A stretch of 64,000 nt of DNA, from the NCBI RefSeq assembly GCF_900186955.1, contig NZ_LT906438.1:124001-188000 (forward strand), in the 5' to 3' direction. The notes beneath the pieces are model-generated. The model searched no databases, was not told the origin of the DNA, and was given only the letters and a program-made list of their open reading frames with translations. The position numbers were made by a program, and so were the translations under genes. Below, one piece after another: positions 47,682 through 57,312 of the stretch. Source of the DNA: Bacillus pumilus (GTDB lineage: Bacteria; Bacillota; Bacilli; Bacillales; Bacillaceae). Position 1 is the stretch's first letter. The number at the start of each line of letters is the position of its first letter.

Positions 47682-47713
47682 AAGGTTTCTCGATGATGAG
47701 AAGGCTTTTTTTT
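47682..47713 (+). terminator. Terminator after the rrn-tRNA operon
   Basis: TTTCTC (47686-47691) and GAGAA (47698-47702), extended imperfectly by AAG/CTT, are followed by T8. It ends the rRNA transcript. Confidence 0.7.
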
Positions 47714-47753
47714 ATGTCCTTTTTTAATTGCTTGAGGACAAATTAGGGGCCAA

Positions 47754-47960
47754 TTATCGAATTTGCAATAAGTTTGTTATAGCTTCCGCATGACCTAAAC
47801 GCTGAGAGACAGATTTGATATTAAACCCAGGTATTTTGCCGATTTGATTTATTAGCATAGCAGCATGAGTATGATGCATATCATGCAAATGAATTTTCTT
47901 ATATCGTGCCTTTTTGCGAATCGCTCCCACCATGTATTTAAATTTGAAAAGGTAGTTGAG
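47754..47960 (-). pseudogene. Tyrosine recombinase (integrase) C-terminal remnant
   Basis: On the minus strand the frame reads KIHLHDMHHTHAAMLIN followed by NIKSVSQRLGHAEAIT, the box II region of phage/ICE integrases. The normal catalytic HxxR is HDMH here, so the second arginine is lost. The tyrosine nucleophile and the whole N-terminal part are absent. It lies about 95 bases downstream of tRNA-Thr, a usual attachment site for such elements. It is a dead relic of an integrated element. Confidence 0.75.
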
Positions 47961-47987
47961 AACGCATAATGCTAATTCGTTCAGCTG

Positions 47988-48086
47988 ATGACAGAGCAAG
48001 GCATTCCATTGGCCAAGGTTGTGCCACATAAGAGATGGAACGGATCGAAGACAAAAGCAGCTCTTCAAAAAGCATTGAAAAAATGA
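47988..48086 (+). pseudogene. Short fragment, possibly a phage N-acetylmuramoyl-L-alanine amidase
   Basis: A 32-codon frame reading QGIPLAKVVPHKRWNGS and then a lysine-rich end. The I-P-L-x-x-V-x-x-H-x-x-W-x-G pattern resembles the zinc-site part of amidase_2 phage lysins. A strong terminator follows. The identification is weak; only position next to an integrase relic supports phage origin. Confidence 0.3.
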
Positions 48087-48093
48087 AAAAAGT

Positions 48094-48126
48094 AAAGCCC
48101 CTGACCATAGAGAACAGGGGCTTTTT
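48094..48126 (+). terminator. Intrinsic terminator in the remnant region
   Basis: AAAGCCCCTG (48094-48103) and CAGGGGCTTT (48115-48124) pair perfectly over ten bases, with an 11-base loop and T5. Confidence 0.85.
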
Positions 48127-48208
48127 GATGTTTATTTTTCATCGTTTGAAAATGCGTGAAGCTGCAATTCTTTTGCATTTGCAACTTTCATTGTTCTTCT
48201 TTTGAAGT

Positions 48209-48379
48209 GCAGTCCCAGCAAGTGGTAATGCTTTAGTGTTCCAAATCGGTGCTAACGCAACTCAACAAATTTCAGTTCATATTGATAAAATGAGTACAGA
48301 TGCATTGGGAGTTAAAGATGCTAATGGGATTGTAGCGAATCAAGCTATTAAAGACATCGATGTAAGAAGAGAAACATGA
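48209..48379 (+). pseudogene. Flagellin (hag) internal fragment, plus strand
   Basis: The frame reads LVFQIGANATQQISVHIDKM and continues TDALGVKDANGI, closely matching the middle of Bacillus flagellin (the segment after the N-terminal D1 helix). It stops at TGA 48377-48379. No start, no N- or C-terminal flagellin domain. A second flagellin piece lies 100 bases away on the other strand. Confidence 0.75.
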
Positions 48380-48479
48380 TTAGTGTAAAACCGTGTGGAA
48401 ACAACACTTTTTCACATGCCCTAAAAACACTCGATAAAGTAACAGAGAAAAGAAAAAGGATTTTGAGAGAAGGATTCAG

Positions 48480-48592
48480 GATAGATTGAAGGTCAGACTC
48501 TTTATCCTGCGTACCAGTGTTTCCAGCTTGAACCACTAGTTCACGTACACGTTGAAGGATTGAGTGAGTTTCAGTCAATGCACCTTCCGCCC
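48480..48592 (-). pseudogene. Flagellin (hag) N-terminal-domain fragment, minus strand
   Basis: On the minus strand the frame reads GAEGALTETHSILQRVRELV then VQAGNTGTQDKESDLQSI, the conserved D1 helix of flagellin (about residues 92-128 in B. subtilis Hag). It then turns into unrelated sequence. In an intact gene this segment lies upstream of the other fragment on the same strand, so one piece has been inverted. Confidence 0.8.
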
Positions 48593-48612
48593 CTTTATAT
48601 AGGGGTTTTTTT
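48590..48612 (+). terminator. Terminator-like hairpin
   Basis: CCCCT (48590-48594) and AGGGG (48601-48605), followed by T7. It overlaps the edge of the flagellin fragment. Confidence 0.55.
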
Positions 48613-48632
48613 GTTTGTCTTTATTCAGTTCG

Positions 48633-48809
48633 ATGTTTCATTTTATTGATCGTTCTAAAAGACGCTTCATCCAAGTGTTCATCAGGGAAAGATCTCCAGC
48701 GATAGAACGTGTAAAGGGAAAGTTTCAAGCAGCTGGCGTACAAGTAGACGTAGTTGGAATGGATATACAAAGTCGAAATCTTGTGAAACAGGTGAATGGT
48801 TCTTCATAA
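48633..48809 (+). pseudogene. C-terminal STAS-like tail, probable remnant of a SulP permease (ybaR)
   Basis: About 58 codons reading IERVKGKFQAAGVQVDVVGM then IQSRNLVKQV. This fits the end of a STAS domain as found at the C-terminus of SulP anion permeases. In B. subtilis ybaR (SulP) lies directly before ybaS, and here the fragment directly precedes a ybaS-like gene. All membrane helices are missing, so it is a remnant. The family call is moderately secure and the synteny is from memory. Confidence 0.5.
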
Positions 48810-48821
48810 GTTTTTTCTGTT

Positions 48822-49871: not shown

Positions 49872-51119
49872 TTAATAGATGAGATATTTCTTCCGTTTCT
49901 TTTCGAACGATTTGAGGTCGTGATGATAGCGTTTCATGATGTGTTTGACAGAAGTACCTTGATTGATTTCTTCTTTGATCCAACCATTCCCGATGAGTTT
50001 ATCAAAGCTGCCTGTTTGAAGGAACTCAAAGTCTTTTGGATATAAATCATGTATGGCTTTGATGATGGATAACCCTGTTTTTACCGCTTCGAATGAAGAG
50101 CGGTCTGTGACGTATAGCTGCACACCGTGTGATAGCTTCCCTGCATGTTTAGAAAAAGTGGGGGTGAATGATACGGGTCTAAATTTCACACCCTTTAGTT
50201 TTAATTGATTTAGATGATCTGCTAGCTCATTGCTATTGATATACGGAGCGCCAATGAGCTCGAACGGTTTTGTTGTTCCTCTGCCTTCAGAGACATTTGT
50301 GCCTTCAATTAATCCTGTGGCGGGATATACAAAGGTACTATCCACTGTTGGCATGTTAGGTGAAGGAAGGACGAACGGCAGCTTCGTGTCATCAAACGTC
50401 ATGGAACGCTTCCAATTTTTCATTTTGATGACTGTGACATCAGCATTGATATGAAACTCTTTGTTAAAAAATGTTGCTAGTTCACCAGTGGTCATCCCAT
50501 GTCTTAATGGTATTGGATAGAGCCCTACAAATGAAGCGTGCTCAGGTTCTAGGACAGGGCCTTCTACTTTTAGTCCGCCAATAGGGTTTGGACGGTCTAG
50601 GACAACAAAGGGAATGTTGTTTTCTTTAGCGGCCTCCATCGCATAGGCCATCGTGTAAATATAGGTGTAATAACGAGTGCCAACATCTTGGATATCAAAC
50701 AGCAAGACATCTACATTTTTGAGCATGTCAGGCGTTGGTTTTCTTGTTTTTCCATAGAGGGAGTAAACAGGAAGACCTGTTTTTTCATCGGTATAGGATT
50801 CGACGCCTTCTCCTGCTTGTGCATCGCCGCGCACACCATGTTCAGGTCCATATAGAGCAGTAAGCTTAATATTTGGATGCTCAAATAGGAGATCGACACT
50901 GCTTTTCATATTTGCATCAATACCAGTTGGGTTCGTAATGAGGCCGACCCTTTTCCCTTTTAACCATGAAAGGTTGCCTGAGAGTAGTGTTTCAATCCCT
51001 GTTTTGACTGCTGCTTTTTTCCCTTTTGTATCTGTTCGTTCTTGGTTTGCGGGGGAGGCGGCGGTCAATGTGCTCATAATGAAAATGCTTGCGAGTATGA
51101 AGCTTGCTGTTTTTTTCAA
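49872..51119 (-). CDS. namZ: NamZ, exo-beta-N-acetylmuramidase (DUF1343, YbbC)
   Basis: A 415-residue secreted protein with a signal peptide (MKKTASFILASIFIMSTLTA). The domain contains GLITNPTGID, LYGPEHGVRGDAQAGEGVES and LLFDIQDVGTRYYTYIYTM, the hallmarks of the YbbC/DUF1343 family. The B. subtilis member was shown to release terminal MurNAc from wall fragments. It is the last gene of the muropeptide operon, 11 bases after nagZ, and acts after NagZ and AmiE outside the cell. Confidence 0.93.
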   Translation of the reverse strand: MKKTASFILASIFIMSTLTAASPANQERTDTKGKKAAVKTGIETLLSGNLSWLKGKRVGLITNPTGIDANMKSSVDLLFEHPNIKLTALYGPEHGVRGDAQAGEGVESYTDEKTGLPVYSLYGKTRKPTPDMLKNVDVLLFDIQDVGTRYYTYIYTMAYAMEAAKENNIPFVVLDRPNPIGGLKVEGPVLEPEHASFVGLYPIPLRHGMTTGELATFFNKEFHINADVTVIKMKNWKRSMTFDDTKLPFVLPSPNMPTVDSTFVYPATGLIEGTNVSEGRGTTKPFELIGAPYINSNELADHLNQLKLKGVKFRPVSFTPTFSKHAGKLSHGVQLYVTDRSSFEAVKTGLSIIKAIHDLYPKDFEFLQTGSFDKLIGNGWIKEEINQGTSVKHIMKRYHHDLKSFEKKRKKYLIY

Positions 51120-51130
51120 GAGAATCCCTC

Positions 51131-53050
51131 CTATTTGATCTGTTTCCCTTTCAAGTTGAGTCCATAGCCGAATGGATACAGGGTTTGATTTGGATGAGTG
51201 ACAGATGGGATATCTACAGGCAGTTTGCCTTTAGGTGATGCAGTGCCAAATATGACTTCTAACCCAGCAGGAATATTTGGCTGGTTGAATTGTCCGTTTG
51301 AGTAGCCCTTAAAACCGTAAACAGCTAGTAAGGCATCCGCCTCCTCAAAATTTGCAGCATCGTAAGGGTTTCTTAGGCTCATGATGACCATTTTTTTCTT
51401 TTGTGCTGCAGCTTCTTTCATGACAGCACGCGGGAAAGCAGTAGCCCATTTTTTCGGGTCCTGTACATTGTCATCAATCACACCATCATTCACAGCTGGG
51501 TCATTTTGGACAACGTATGAGCCGGTAATCACATAGTCAGCATCTTGTATGAGTCTGGCTGTTTCTTTGTTGAAAGTCTTATCTGCAAAAGCAAATGATT
51601 GGATACGTACAGGTTTGATCTTTTTTTGTTTGATCAGAGAATCAATTGTGACAGACATGGCTTTTGTTTGATCTTCGTAAGGTGCCATGACCAAGATTTT
51701 ATCATTCTTTTTAGGCTTGAAGGGTAGGGTCTTATCGTTGTTTTTAAGCAGGGTGATCCCTTCACGCGCCATTTTTTGTTCTGCTTTCCGGTGCGATTTT
51801 TTCCCAACGACTTGAGTGGCTTTTTTGATTTTTTTCTCAAGGGTGATAGGTTTTTTGGAAGAAATGATGCCTCGTTTGATCTTCAATTCAAGAATTTTTT
51901 CAACAGATTCGTTGATTTGAGACATCGGAATTTCTTTCTTTACAATTGCCTGTTTTACAGCATTGAACACATTCTCAAGGTTTTTCTCAGTTTTAAGAGA
52001 GGTGACTGGTGCTGGCATGAGGGCGATGTCGACGCCAGCCTTAATGGCCATCACTACGGCTTCTTCCTGTCCGAAGTTATCTGCAATCGCTTTCATATTT
52101 AGGGCGTCTGTTACGACAACTCCTTGAAAGCCCATCTCTTCTTTTAATAAGTGTGTGATGACTTTTTTCGATAAGGTAGCTGGAACCATGATGTCCTCGC
52201 CATCTTTTTTGCTTTTATATGTTGTATCATCAATGGCAGGAAATTGAACATGAGCGGTCATGACCATATCCGCACCAGCGTTGATCGCTTGTTGAAACGG
52301 ATACAGCTCCACCTTTTTAAGACGATCTAGGTCATGTTCTACGAGCGGCAAGCCGTAGTGACTATCGACAGCTGTATCACCATGTCCTGGGAAATGCTTG
52401 AGTGTCGAAATAGTCTTCTCCTTTTGAAGTCCCTTCATGGTTTGAAGGCCAAGCCTAGTGACAAGAGCAGGATCAGAGCTAAAGGAACGGACACCAATGA
52501 CGGGGTTGTTTGGGTTATTATTCACATCTAGCACAGGAGAGAAGTTTGTATTGATCCCTAGTACGTTTAATTCTTTGCCGATGATTTTACCTGTGTCGTA
52601 TGCATTTTTCTTGCTTCTAGAGGCACCAATCGACATATTTCCTGGGAAATGTGTTCCCTTTTGTAATCTTGTGACGATTCCACCTTCTTGATCAATTGAA
52701 ATGAGTAATGGAATCTTTGGTGATGCTTTTTGAAATTCATGGGTGAGTTTGACGGTTTGTTTCGTATCAACGACATTCTCCGCAAATAAGATGACACCGC
52801 CTAGATGATATTTTTCTACAAGATGGGATACTTCTTTATTCATCTTTGTTAAGCCTGTAGGTGCGGATTCATCTTTTGTTTGCCAATTACGAAAGTCTGG
52901 CATAAGCATTTGACCTATCTTTTCATCCAAAGACATGTTTTGTACCATTTGTTTGGCGGTTGAAAGAGGGGCAGAGCTAACCTTTTCCGTTGGAATGGAA
53001 GAGGTTAGCAGAGCTAAAACCAAAGCAGCGGGGAAAAGTGCTTTTAACAT
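51131..53050 (-). CDS. nagZ: NagZ, secreted beta-N-acetylglucosaminidase
   Basis: A 639-residue glycoside hydrolase family 3 enzyme with an N-terminal signal peptide. The catalytic domain carries [15 protein letters not shown] (about 217-231), with the Asp-His dyad at 229 and 231, and [11 protein letters not shown] with the nucleophile Asp. A C-terminal alpha/beta/alpha domain follows (from about 420). It removes GlcNAc from muropeptides trimmed by AmiE. It is 13 bases after amiE. Confidence 0.95.
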
Positions 53051-53063
53051 CGAATTCCTCCTT

Positions 53064-54419
53064 TTACTTAAAAGATTCGTAGATTGCGGTCATGATGCTT
53101 CCATAAGTGCCAGTTGGGAAAAGGTCACCTTCAAATTGATTTGGGTTGGTTTCAGGTGAAACGACAGGCGAATGTTTCTTATTTGTCAGCAAGACGATAC
53201 CTAAATTATGTTTTGGATCAATCAATGTCATCGTTCCGGTCCAGCCAGTATGTCCATAGGCTTCGTTACTTGCATATTTTCCAAACATCCATTCCATGTC
53301 AGTATGACCGTTTTTTCGCCAGCCTAGCCCGTATGTTGGGTTTGTATCAGAAGAGGCTGTAAAGAGATCGATAGAAGCTTGATCAAAGATGGTTGTTTTT
53401 CCATAGCCTCCTTTGTTCAGCATGAGCTGGAGCAGCACGGCCATGTCTGATATGTTAGAGAAAAGTCCAGCATGACCAGAGATACCTGCCATTGAGTAAT
53501 ATGCTTTTTCATCGTGGACTTCGCCTAGCAGGGTGTATCTGCGAATGTTTTCAAAATCAATGACACCATCTCGCGAATTACCTAAACGTTCGGTTGCTGC
53601 AAAATGCTTCGGTTTAAATCCTTTTTGCAGTGGATTGAACATTGTGTGTTTGAGACCTAGCGGCCGATAGATTGTCGACTCTACATATTGATCAAGAGGC
53701 ATACCTGTTTTTTTCTCAATGATCATGCCTAACAGCATGTAATCAATGTCACTATAAATGTGCTGGGTGCCTGGTTTGTATTGCAGAGGCACCTTCGGCA
53801 GCCATTTCATCGTTGTCTTTCTATCTTGAGAATAAAAGGTGCCGGCTGCTTCTTTGCTATAAAATAAGACACTGGAAGGGAGTCCGGCAGAATGGGTCAG
53901 AAGATCTTTTACATGGAGCTGGTCTTTGCCGGTTACCTTTGCATTTGGTTCATCTTTAAAATCTGGCAGGATGGCTTGTATTTTTTCGTTCACATCCAGT
54001 TTTTTCTCGTAGACAAGCTTTTGCAGGGCATAGTTCGTCGCATACATTTTGGTGTTGGATGCTAAGTCGAACAGTGTATTCTTTTTCATTTTCTTATAGG
54101 ATTTGAGTTCGGTTGTGCCTTCGTATTTTTGCCTGTAGCCATAGGCTTTTTGATGGACGATTTTTCCGTCTTTGATAATGATGAGTGCGGCTCCTGGAAA
54201 TCCTGCTTTGATATCGTTTTGAATCATGTGATCAACCTTCCTAAGCTGCCTAGAAGAAAAACTAACTTGTTCCGGTCGTTTTGCCTTTTTTAAGACGGGA
54301 TATTCTTCAGGTGCTGTTTTAGACAAAGACGATACAGGATGGGAGCTAGTTGCAAATGTTTGTGCTGGTAATCCAAGGAGCATGAGCAGACTTGTTATTA
54401 AGAGAAAGTATTTCTTCAA
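53064..54419 (-). CDS. amiE: AmiE, secreted N-acetylmuramoyl-L-alanine amidase of the serine beta-lactamase fold
   Basis: A 451-residue protein with a signal peptide ([20 protein letters not shown]). Superfamily motifs are S-x-x-K as SNTK at 121-124, Y-S-D in [12 protein letters not shown], and HTG in [14 protein letters not shown]. It cleaves stem peptides from MurNAc ahead of NagZ. The gene lies 12 bases after murP and is followed by nagZ. Confidence 0.93.
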
Positions 54420-54431
54420 GAGTTAGACCTC

Positions 54432-55810
54432 CTATTGCTTATTTTCCTCAAATTCAACAGCCATATCATCATGAAAACCAAATAAGTATGTGAAAATAAA
54501 TCCAGCGACATAAGCAATAAAGAGTCCGATTAAGTAAAGAAGCATTTGATGTGTGTGAACAATAAAGGTTAATGGGAGACCTGATACACCAATCGCCTTC
54601 GTTGCAATTTGGAAGTAGGCTTGAAATGCACCGCCGATTCCAGCGCCAAGACAAGCGGTGAGAAATGGTCGTCCCAGCGGGAGTGTCACACCAAAAATGA
54701 GTGGTTCACCAATGCCAAGCATCCCTGAAGGAAGTCCACCCGCGATGGCTCTTTTGAGTTTTTTCTTTTTTGTCTTCATATAAATGGCGAATGCCGCACC
54801 TACCTGTCCTGCACCGCCCATAGCGAGAATCGGCAAAAGCGGGTCATCTCCTATGGAATTGATGAGTTCCATATGAATCGGTGTCAGTCCTTGGTGAAGT
54901 CCTGTTACAACAAGTGGAAGGAAGGTTGCACCAAGAATAAATCCAGCGAAGATTCCGCCCATATTTAATAGATAAGTTAATCCTGAGGTAATGGCATCCG
55001 ATATAAATCCGCCGACTGGCATGAAGACAACGTACGTAAAAATGCCTGTAATGAGTAGTGTGATGGTTGGTGTGACGATGATATCAAGTGATTGCGGGAC
55101 GAATCGTCTGATTCTTGTTTCCACAAGCGCCATAAAGATGGCAGCTAGAAGAACACCAATAAGCCCGCCTCTGCCTGGTAGAATATTTGTGCCAAATAAC
55201 ATAATATCTGCGGAGGCTGGATTAATAATGAGGATACCAGCTAATGCGCCTAATGCAGGAGAGCCTCCGAACTCCTTTGCGGCATTTGTTCCAACTAATA
55301 TACCGAGATAAGCGAACAAGCCTGAACCAATAACGGTTAAAATGATCGCTGCTTGAGACTTTCCATCAAGCCAGCCCGCTTGCACGATTGCTTTTGTAAT
55401 CCCTGTAATAAGACCTGATGCAACGAGTGCTGGAATGATAGGTATAAAAATGCTGGCAATTCGTCGCAAGAACAGCTTGAACGGTGTGCGGTTTTTTGTG
55501 AAATGGCTTGCTTGTTTTTCTGTGCTTCGTTGTTTAAATCATACGAGCCAGAGGCATTTAGCAGTTGTTCAAATGCACTTGATACTTGGTTGACAACACC
55601 AGTACCTAAGATAATTTGTAGCGTTTCTGCCTCAACGACTCCAATGACGCCATCGAGTTCTTTGATTTCATTGATCTGAACTTGTTCATTGTCAATCGGT
55701 GTAATTCGGAGACGCGTCATACAATGTGTATGGGAAGAGATGTTTTCAGAACCACCACAGAGAGAAAGAATGTCTTTCGCCAACTGCTGATATTTCGTTT
55801 GATGACTCAT
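54432..55810 (-). pseudogene. murP: MurP, PTS EIIBC for N-acetylmuramic acid, frameshifted
   Basis: Two frames make up one PTS permease. The EIIB domain starts at ATG 55810; its phosphorylation motif HCMTRLR has the cysteine at residue 30. The EIIC domain (RRIASIFIPIIPALVASGLI onward, with GIGEPLIFGVTLP) continues in another frame to 54432. The switch falls at an A5 run (coding strand, 55519-55515). One extra A there would restore a protein of 459 residues, the normal size. As read, the EIIB frame runs into about 50 wrong residues and stops at 55337. It could be a true mutation, a slippage-prone tract or a sequencing error. Confidence 0.85.
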
Positions 55811-57222
55811 GTTGAATCCCCCTTTGATTTTCGTTTCATGGAGCGGATGGCATGTCTTGTTTTGTCAATATATTGCGCTGTCTCTTCATATTGATGGGAA
55901 GCTAAGCTGAGGAACAAGACATCAATTAAGTAGAGCTGTGCCATTCTAGAGGAAGTGGCTGCACTGCGAAAAGGTGCTTCATTGGAACCGGACGTCGATA
56001 GGTGAACGTCACATAAGGCAGAAACGCTTGTTTGACCTGGATGTGTCAATGCAATGGTTTTCACTCCATTGTCTTTTGCGAGCTGAAGGGCTTGAATGAT
56101 GTCTAACGTTTCTCCTGAAAAGGATATACCGAACACGATGTCATTCTTTCCTGCATTTGCGATGACCGTTGATGCGATGTGCATGTCAGTGAAGGCAGTC
56201 GCTGCATAATTGATTCTGAGAAATTTCTGCTGGGCATCCGCTGCGACGATGCCAGATGCACCGACGCCGATAAAATGGATTTGGTTTGCATGCAGCAGTA
56301 ATTGAACAGCCTCTTCTAATGCCTCTGCATTTAAAATAGAAGCGGTGTCCTTAATCGATTGAATCGAGTTTCCTGCTGTTTTTTTGTCTGTGTTTGTTTG
56401 GAGCATGACGATGGCAGTTTTGACTTCTAAGTCTGCCGCTTCAAGCGTTTTCACGGCTTGTTCGTAGGGAGCGTTTGTCACATGTTGAATGATGGTGATG
56501 GCGCGTTCTTTTAATTTATGATTGCTGACTTTTACATCAACCATCAGGTTTTCATATACTTTTCCTTGTCTGATCATGACAGAGGTGGAAAGCATATTTA
56601 AAATCATTTTATGAGCGGATGCGGCTTTCATTCGTGTTGACCCGGTGATGGCTTCAGGTCCTACAATGACTTCAATGGCGCAGTCTGCCAGTTCGCTAAT
56701 TTTTGCTTGTTCATTACAGCTGAGGGCTACTGTTTTTGCGCCGATGGATTTAGCGTAGTTTAAAGCGCCGATGATGTAGGGTGTCCTACCGCTGGCGGCG
56801 ATACCGACGACTGTATCTTTTGATGTCAGGTGAATGTGTACTAAATCCTGTTTGCCCGCTTCTTCACTGTCTTCCACATCTTCGGCAGCATGTGAAAAAG
56901 CAGCGTCTCCGCCTGCCATGATGCCGACAATCACATCAGGTGAGACGCTATAGGTAGGGGGACATTCGACAGCATCCATCACGCCAAGTCTGCCGCTTGT
57001 CCCGGCTCCTAAATAAACGAGTCTGCCCCCATTTGAGATGGATTCATAGGCGAAGTCACTTGCTGTTTTGACATGTGGTAGGACACGGTTGACTGCTTGA
57101 GCGACCTTCATATCTTCTTCATTAATCATTTGGAGCATTTCGAGTGGATCTGCTTGTGATATTCCCATTGTGTTAGGATTTCTTGATTCTGTTGTCAAAG
57201 AACGCAATTGAGATGGCTGCAT
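55807..57222 (-). CDS. murQ: MurQ etherase fused to the SIS domain of repressor MurR
   Basis: A 471-residue protein where MurQ alone is about 304. Residues 1-280 are MurNAc-6-phosphate etherase: [20 protein letters not shown] with the catalytic-region Glu 86, and [15 protein letters not shown]. Residues 285-471 match the sugar-isomerase (SIS) domain of the RpiR-type regulator Mur[35 protein letters not shown] and [14 protein letters not shown]. The MurR helix-turn-helix and the last 25 or so residues of MurQ are missing. The join is near 56368-56385 and in frame. ATG 57222 follows AAGGAGGA. The stop overlaps the murP start by four bases. Confidence 0.9.
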
Positions 57223-57280: not shown

Positions 57281-57312
57281 CATTATATTTAAATATTGAA
57301 ATTATATTTCAA
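57270..57312. promoter_or_regulatory. Operator-like palindromes at the murQ promoter
   Basis: TGAAATTTCA (57270-57279) is a perfect 10-bp palindrome on the -35. TTGAAAT-TAT-ATTTCAA (57296-57312) is a second dyad 16 bases upstream. Both share the half-site TTGAAAT/ATTTCAA. They fit an RpiR-type operator such as MurR would use. Confidence 0.6.

Follow-up and report, generated by a model that had tools for sequence, protein, structure and literature searches.

The locus described here raises the question of why an enzyme of cell wall sugar recycling should be joined in one chain to half of the repressor of its own operon, and whether such a protein was left behind by a young deletion or is retained for a purpose. 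The DNA that was analyzed, hereafter the window, is a stretch of 64,000 nucleotides of Bacillus pumilus (contig NZ_LT906438.1, positions 124,001 to 188,000), and all coordinates below are those of the window. The genome to which it belongs is assembled as one contig of 3.86 Mb with a completeness of 100%.

A chimera of MurQ and the SIS domain of MurR

The fusion gene (55807..57222, minus strand), recognized from the list of open reading frames and from Pfam and family-profile matches, consists of one open frame that starts with ATG and runs over 471 codons. It heads a cluster that follows the B. subtilis gene order murQ-murR-murP-amiE-nagZ-ybbC, as given in an excerpt of PMC5061867. Residues 1-283 (56374..57222, minus strand; profile match and alignment with relatives) correspond to MurQ, the product of B. 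subtilis murQ (formerly ybbI), and residues 9-287 match TIGR00274, the model for N-acetylmuramic acid 6-phosphate (MurNAc-6P) etherase, with 444.4 bits, which lies above the curated cut-off of 302. The stretches ECPPT (from residue 86) and GRTPY (from residue 145), which we take to belong to the MurQ active site, are both found in this half. The remainder of the chain, residues 284-471 (55810..56373, minus strand; assigned by profiles), is the SIS (phosphosugar-binding) part of MurR, the RpiR-family repressor of the MurNAc operon (B. subtilis murR, formerly ybbH). This SIS domain is complete and corresponds to MurR residues 102-289 in the numbering of G028, the nearest relative compared. The best stretch for Pfam SIS (PF01380) covers residues 309-438, and the first SIS domain of the chain is GKRP_SIS_N-like. 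Residues 281-464 match the MurR/RpiR model NF008458 at model positions 110-292 only, and the fusion falls short of the equivalog cut-offs of both RpiR/MurR models (NF008458, 153.4 versus 378 bits; NF012026, 73.4 versus 408 bits). No HTH_6 domain was found by Pfam in the fusion (P0001) or in a second fusion protein (P0002, see below); an intact MurR protein (P0093) has it at residues 4-76. The preliminary description of this DNA, which had proposed an in-frame fusion of MurQ and the MurR SIS domain with loss of the DNA-binding domain, thus holds.

The fusion differs from MurQ in that the last 20 residues are exchanged for MurR sequence. Intact MurQ of G028 has 303 residues, and MurQ ends at 300-308 residues in 109 of 109 loci of other genomes (some genomes contributing two loci), so that a complete MurQ C-terminus is a feature which the fusion lacks. 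The lost segment belongs to a helical terminus that weakly resembles UBA domains (UBA_4, 27.3 bits in the main MurQ cluster representative P0003 versus 11.5 in the fusion), and MurR sequence stands in its place. The chimera would be expected to keep at best residual etherase activity. Both halves share more than 97% identity over their full length with the corresponding halves in relatives (98% between the window and G028 for MurQ residues 1-279). Because it is an in-frame chimera of two neighboring genes with this degree of identity, the 471-codon frame is no chance open reading frame.

One deletion between the copies of a 10-bp repeat

Alignment of 16 relatives from the pumilus group with the window leaves one long internal gap at the junction, i.e. 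one deletion. Its size is 380 bp against 11 of the 16 relatives, including G028 (97.5% identity over the 63 kb that align with the window, and 95% and 98% for two samples of 6 kb from elsewhere in the genome), and 377, 378, 379, 379 and 381 bp against the other five. The last 20 residues of MurQ, the murQ stop, the murR start and the HTH part were removed, which bears out the earlier view that a single deletion took the end of murQ, its stop codon and the murR helix-turn-helix. In G028, both edges of the deletion lie inside an identical 10-bp word, present once in murQ and once in murR at a distance of 380 bp. One copy is left in the window (56375..56384, minus strand), where the murQ-side and murR-side DNA matches to G028 overlap by these 10 bp, and the residues common to both genes at the junction are 280-283. 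The word encodes K-T-A and has the same codon phase in murQ and murR. A deletion through the repeat is therefore automatically in frame, and the open frame of the fusion needs no selection to explain it.

These features point to a short-repeat deletion, probably of the slippage type, from the repeat in 3' murQ to the copy that separates the HTH part of murR from its SIS part. Six of the 16 relatives, B. altitudinis 41KF2b (L019) being one, have the repeat without mismatch over 10-11 bp; in the remaining ten, G021 and G022 included, it is shorter or carries mismatches. Further direct repeats of 10-11 exact bases occur within the same 2.2 kb, and the junction repeat is not uniquely strong. Since equal or longer repeats lie nearby and the copies are imperfect in most relatives, the repeat alone cannot account for the recurrence of the deletion that is described next.

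A second fusion with the same junction

Only the window genome, out of 44 genomes from the genus, matched residues 1-471 in one piece. In all 16 pumilus-group relatives murQ and murR are separate genes, matching as pieces 1-286/288 and 280-471. No further genome with both halves in one piece was found in a search of 80 genomes of the family (61 with a match), and a search at the class level (398 genomes sampled from a larger group; 203 gave a match at 1e-75, with few candidates scored per genome) gave no one-piece fusion among the matches listed. Likewise, we found no published account of a MurQ-MurR fusion in a literature search that took in a minority of the subscription journals.

Open frames of about 600 residues are reported in many genomes and were considered as natural full-length MurQ-MurR fusions. 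They were rejected as such, a stop ending murQ in all 12 cases in which the DNA was read (L016, L019, L023, L025, L027, L032 and L142-L147). It should be noted here that these reported frames, in which murQ and murR are adjacent and in frame, span a stop and would mimic fusions if taken literally.

A search of 5.8 billion proteins returned a second fusion, P0002, as the sole full-length match among the best 120 of 7998 candidates. P0002 also has 471 residues, is 93% identical to the window fusion, and has the same junction; it represents a cluster of 4 member sequences, of which the window's own protein may be one. In a separate search with residues 255-325, which returned five proteins, the junction was spanned by P0002 alone. 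The cluster is small compared with the main MurQ cluster (P0003, 408) and the main MurR cluster (245), all of these sizes being counts of member sequences and not of strains.

By similarity, P0002 appears to be of the B. altitudinis type in both halves. Its identity to B. altitudinis 41KF2b is 98.9% over residues 1-279 and 100% over residues 285-471, as compared to 92.5% and 94.7% to the window protein. It differs from 41KF2b at 3 MurQ positions and at 0 SIS positions, with no decay seen, and 41KF2b itself carries murQ and murR as separate genes. P0002 has K277 and T286, each three residues off the repeat, which are the 41KF2b states; N277 and S286 are found in the window and in 13 of the 16 relatives, G013 having K and S and G018 having K and T. 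Because both halves and the residues flanking the junction are altitudinis-type, P0002 would have an origin of its own, and the fusion most likely arose at least twice, independently and at the same junction. On the same grounds, the idea of a shared, old and selected fusion gene was set aside.

Damage to murP and state of the cluster

The gene after the fusion, murP, is interrupted in the window. Profiles and alignment with relatives place its EIIB part at 55337..55810 (minus strand), which ends early after a 1-bp deletion near 55494, and its EIIC part, in a shifted frame, at 54432..55469 (minus strand). All 15 relatives in which the gene is fully covered have 463-468 stop-free codons there, versus 368 in the window; L020, which covers only part of the gene, was left out of this comparison. 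The frameshift is private to the window genome, and the single-base deletion leaves a homopolymer. The lesion lies between the EIIB and EIIC domains, and as each of these is still in an open frame, transport may not be lost. Right at the end of murP (54442) there is another change in length, which only shifts the stop. Beyond murP follow an amiE/PBP4B-like gene (53064..54419, minus strand; profile NF002968) and a nagZ-like glycoside hydrolase family 3 gene (51131..53050, minus strand; Pfam), both open and not among the shortened frames. The next open frame (49872..51119, minus strand) is at the position of B. subtilis ybbC, and we presume it to be ybbC from this position rather than from a profile.

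Of the conserved open reading frames in the span, 62 of 66 are full length in the window genome, which indicates that the assembly is not generally frameshifted. Of the four that are not, two are murR and murP; the third is a permease gene next to the cluster, which has been lost, and the fourth a small open reading frame whose match begins at residue 23. Lesions therefore cluster at this locus.

As to the permease gene, G028 has a gene for 479 residues, presumably a SulP-type permease by its general resemblance rather than by profile, at the place of window positions 47713-48810. The window retains a remnant of 64 residues from the end of this gene (48615-48809) and otherwise carries other DNA than G028, including an open reading frame at 47754-48068 (minus strand) that, again by general resemblance, looks like the end of a tyrosine recombinase.

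Substitutions and predicted structure of the two halves

Private substitutions of the window in the MurQ part number 2 synonymous and 1 nonsynonymous, as compared to 109 and 86 in the 16 relatives (p 1.0); this half shows no decay and no excess of private amino acid changes. The SIS half has 1 synonymous and 3 nonsynonymous private changes versus 85 and 27 in the 16 relatives (p 0.053 on four changes), and versus 46 and 10 when the two most distant relatives are omitted, leaving 14 (p 0.029). Pairwise dN/dS of the SIS half is 0.22 between the window and G028, 0.08 with G021 and 0.03 with G020, and the lower values with the latter two imply that part of the excess is G028's own. The four changes lean toward relaxed constraint on the SIS half. 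The SIS half, for which the preliminary description had suggested computing dN/dS, shows no sign of stronger constraint.

An AlphaFold2 model contains both SIS domains and one helix (residues 280-294) across the junction, with a pTM of 0.51 and low confidence in the linker (mean pLDDT 61 for residues 281-290 and 50 for residues 291-300). The input alignment held close SIS rows only, and the model supports the domains, not their arrangement. An earlier alignment that included distant MurR SIS pieces had misaligned these onto the MurQ half and was not used. Foldseek retrieved MurQ structures first and then GKRP and GlmS at an rmsd of about 20 Å, which confirms the parts only. The best solved relatives of the MurQ half, by sequence and by fold alike, are 4s12 and 4lzj.

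A putative operator and the probable loss of repression

Upstream of murQ, the window carries an intact palindrome TGAAAT-N3-ATTTCA (57297..57311, minus strand), found by pattern and conservation, and the murQ start region is likewise intact. The palindrome is present in 16 of 17 pumilus-group rows, the window included (L044 differs), and in 37 of 68 other murQ upstream loci from many Bacillaceae, counted with the strict pattern, with some genomes entering twice and with no shuffle control. It is missing from four genomes that have no MurR SIS match near murQ (L053, L056, L057 and L074), and also from many loci with MurR nearby. The exact 15-mer occurs once in the window genome. At up to two mismatches, the pattern is barely commoner than its reversed control (14 and 8 versus 12 and 5 occurrences). 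The exact site and its conservation make it plausible that the palindrome is the MurR operator.

With the HTH_6 domain and the murR start deleted, the fusion is unable to repress by binding DNA. The SIS protein that ranks next in the window genome is only 36% identical, and the earlier statement that this copy cannot repress the operon stands. In B. subtilis, deletion of murR raises the activity of PmurQ, which MurR represses (excerpt of PMC6148471). Elsewhere, silencing of murR raised enzyme yield, yet operon transcription dropped too (excerpt of PMC11434012); because transcription fell along with murR silencing, that excerpt says little on the loss of MurR alone. Loss of the MurR HTH would be expected to derepress the cluster from murQ to ybbC.

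B. velezensis G040 (L149, 2623-5048) resembles the window in that murQ, a murP-like gene and an amiE-like gene, the latter two named by resemblance and not by profile, stand in a row without murR. Unlike in the window, murQ keeps its end there (308 residues), no fused SIS remnant is present, and the operator pattern is absent (L031 and L053, two loci of this same genome). With its murP-like gene directly after murQ, G040 represents a separate and clean absence of murR, and it shows that murQ, murP and amiE can be retained by a lineage that has no murR there.

Origin and fate of the fusion

We consider it probable that the fusion reflects a recurrent, repeat-mediated loss of MurR, in which the in-frame chimera is a by-product. 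The deletion of 380 bp destroyed the repressor, with an equal deletion most likely occurring independently in a B. altitudinis-type lineage, and its main consequence would be that MurR no longer represses the murQ-murP-amiE-nagZ-ybbC cluster. The murP frameshift would probably impair MurNAc uptake and phosphorylation, so that this route may supply little MurNAc-6P. Given this damage, we regard the fusion as a probable stage in the decay of the MurNAc-6P branch, with the SIS half as a passenger. Against decay stand the MurQ half, which has no excess of private amino acid changes, P0002, in which no decay is seen, and the frame, which is open over 471 codons in both sequences. Of the two options left by the preliminary description, the young deletion is favored. 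A sensor retained for a purpose finds no support, as the frame follows from the phase of the repeat, murP has a private frameshift, and the SIS half shows no sign of stronger constraint; a purposeful sensor-enzyme fusion is unlikely.

The most serious alternative, to which we give roughly a third of the weight of repeat-mediated loss and decay, is that loss of the MurR HTH was itself selected, constitutive recycling of cell wall sugars being useful, for instance in stationary phase. The repeat would then merely set the site of the deletion, and the fused enzyme would work well enough. Two apparent origins with equal outcome, the intact putative operator and murQ start region, the lack of excess changes in the MurQ half, and B. 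velezensis G040 with its murQ, murP-like and amiE-like genes without murR are what one would expect in that case. MurR being a repressor in B. subtilis (excerpt of PMC6148471) and deletion of murQ lowering survival in late stationary phase in the same species (excerpt of PMC5061867) also agree with it. However, the murP frameshift takes away much of the benefit in the window genome, and the fusion is rare, as the cluster sizes of 4 and 408 (P0003) illustrate.

Considerably less likely is a functional tandem-SIS etherase, in which the MurR sensor binds MurNAc-6P and controls or stabilizes the MurQ dimer within one chain. The domains of both halves are preserved in an open frame, the chimera has been seen twice, and tandem SIS chains are known in GKRP and GlmS. 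Nevertheless, the fusion lacks the MurQ end, which all 109 of the other loci possess, the private SIS changes lean nonsynonymous, murP is broken, and the linker is modeled with the low confidence given above. Moreover, besides the window and P0002, no such fusion was found among the matches listed in the genome and protein searches. GKRP, a relative of MurQ, likewise has two SIS domains per chain, and its domain order is SIS-SIS-lid. The fusion departs from this order: its lid-like GKRP-like_C match (residues 224-261) lies between the SIS domains and not at the C-terminus. In addition, its second SIS domain derives from MurR, and the whole chains superpose poorly (rmsd about 21 Å). About equally improbable is a bolder version, in which the murQ-murR pair of the pumilus group has an inherent weak point in the 10-bp repeat. 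Recurrent deletion there, in frame each time, would turn a repressed pair of genes into one constitutive etherase with a wired MurR sensor and would replay a possible beginning of tandem-SIS regulators like GKRP.

An assembly or sequencing artifact, which the preliminary description had coupled to intact genes in close relatives, is very improbable. The relatives are indeed intact (16 of 16), and in murP one single base is missing with a homopolymer left behind, but a separate sequence from another lineage has the identical junction, 62 of the 66 conserved frames are full length, and the genome is one contig of 100% completeness. Just as improbable is one origin followed by transfer of the junction between species by recombination, as the protein junctions of the window fusion and P0002 are identical but the altitudinis-type K277 and T286 would confine the transferred tract to less than about 10 codons.

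The locus offers a clean, young gene fusion made by deletion at a micro-repeat, apparently at least twice at the same bases, whose fate can be traced within a species. Here a repressor has disappeared and its sensor domain has remained on the enzyme that the repressor formerly controlled, and the locus is a candidate for a natural case of derepressed cell wall sugar recycling in Bacillus. Were derepression the advantage, one would expect other bacteria with the fusion to have an intact murP. If the fused protein is active and controlled by a ligand, it would provide a rare view of the birth of an allosteric enzyme.
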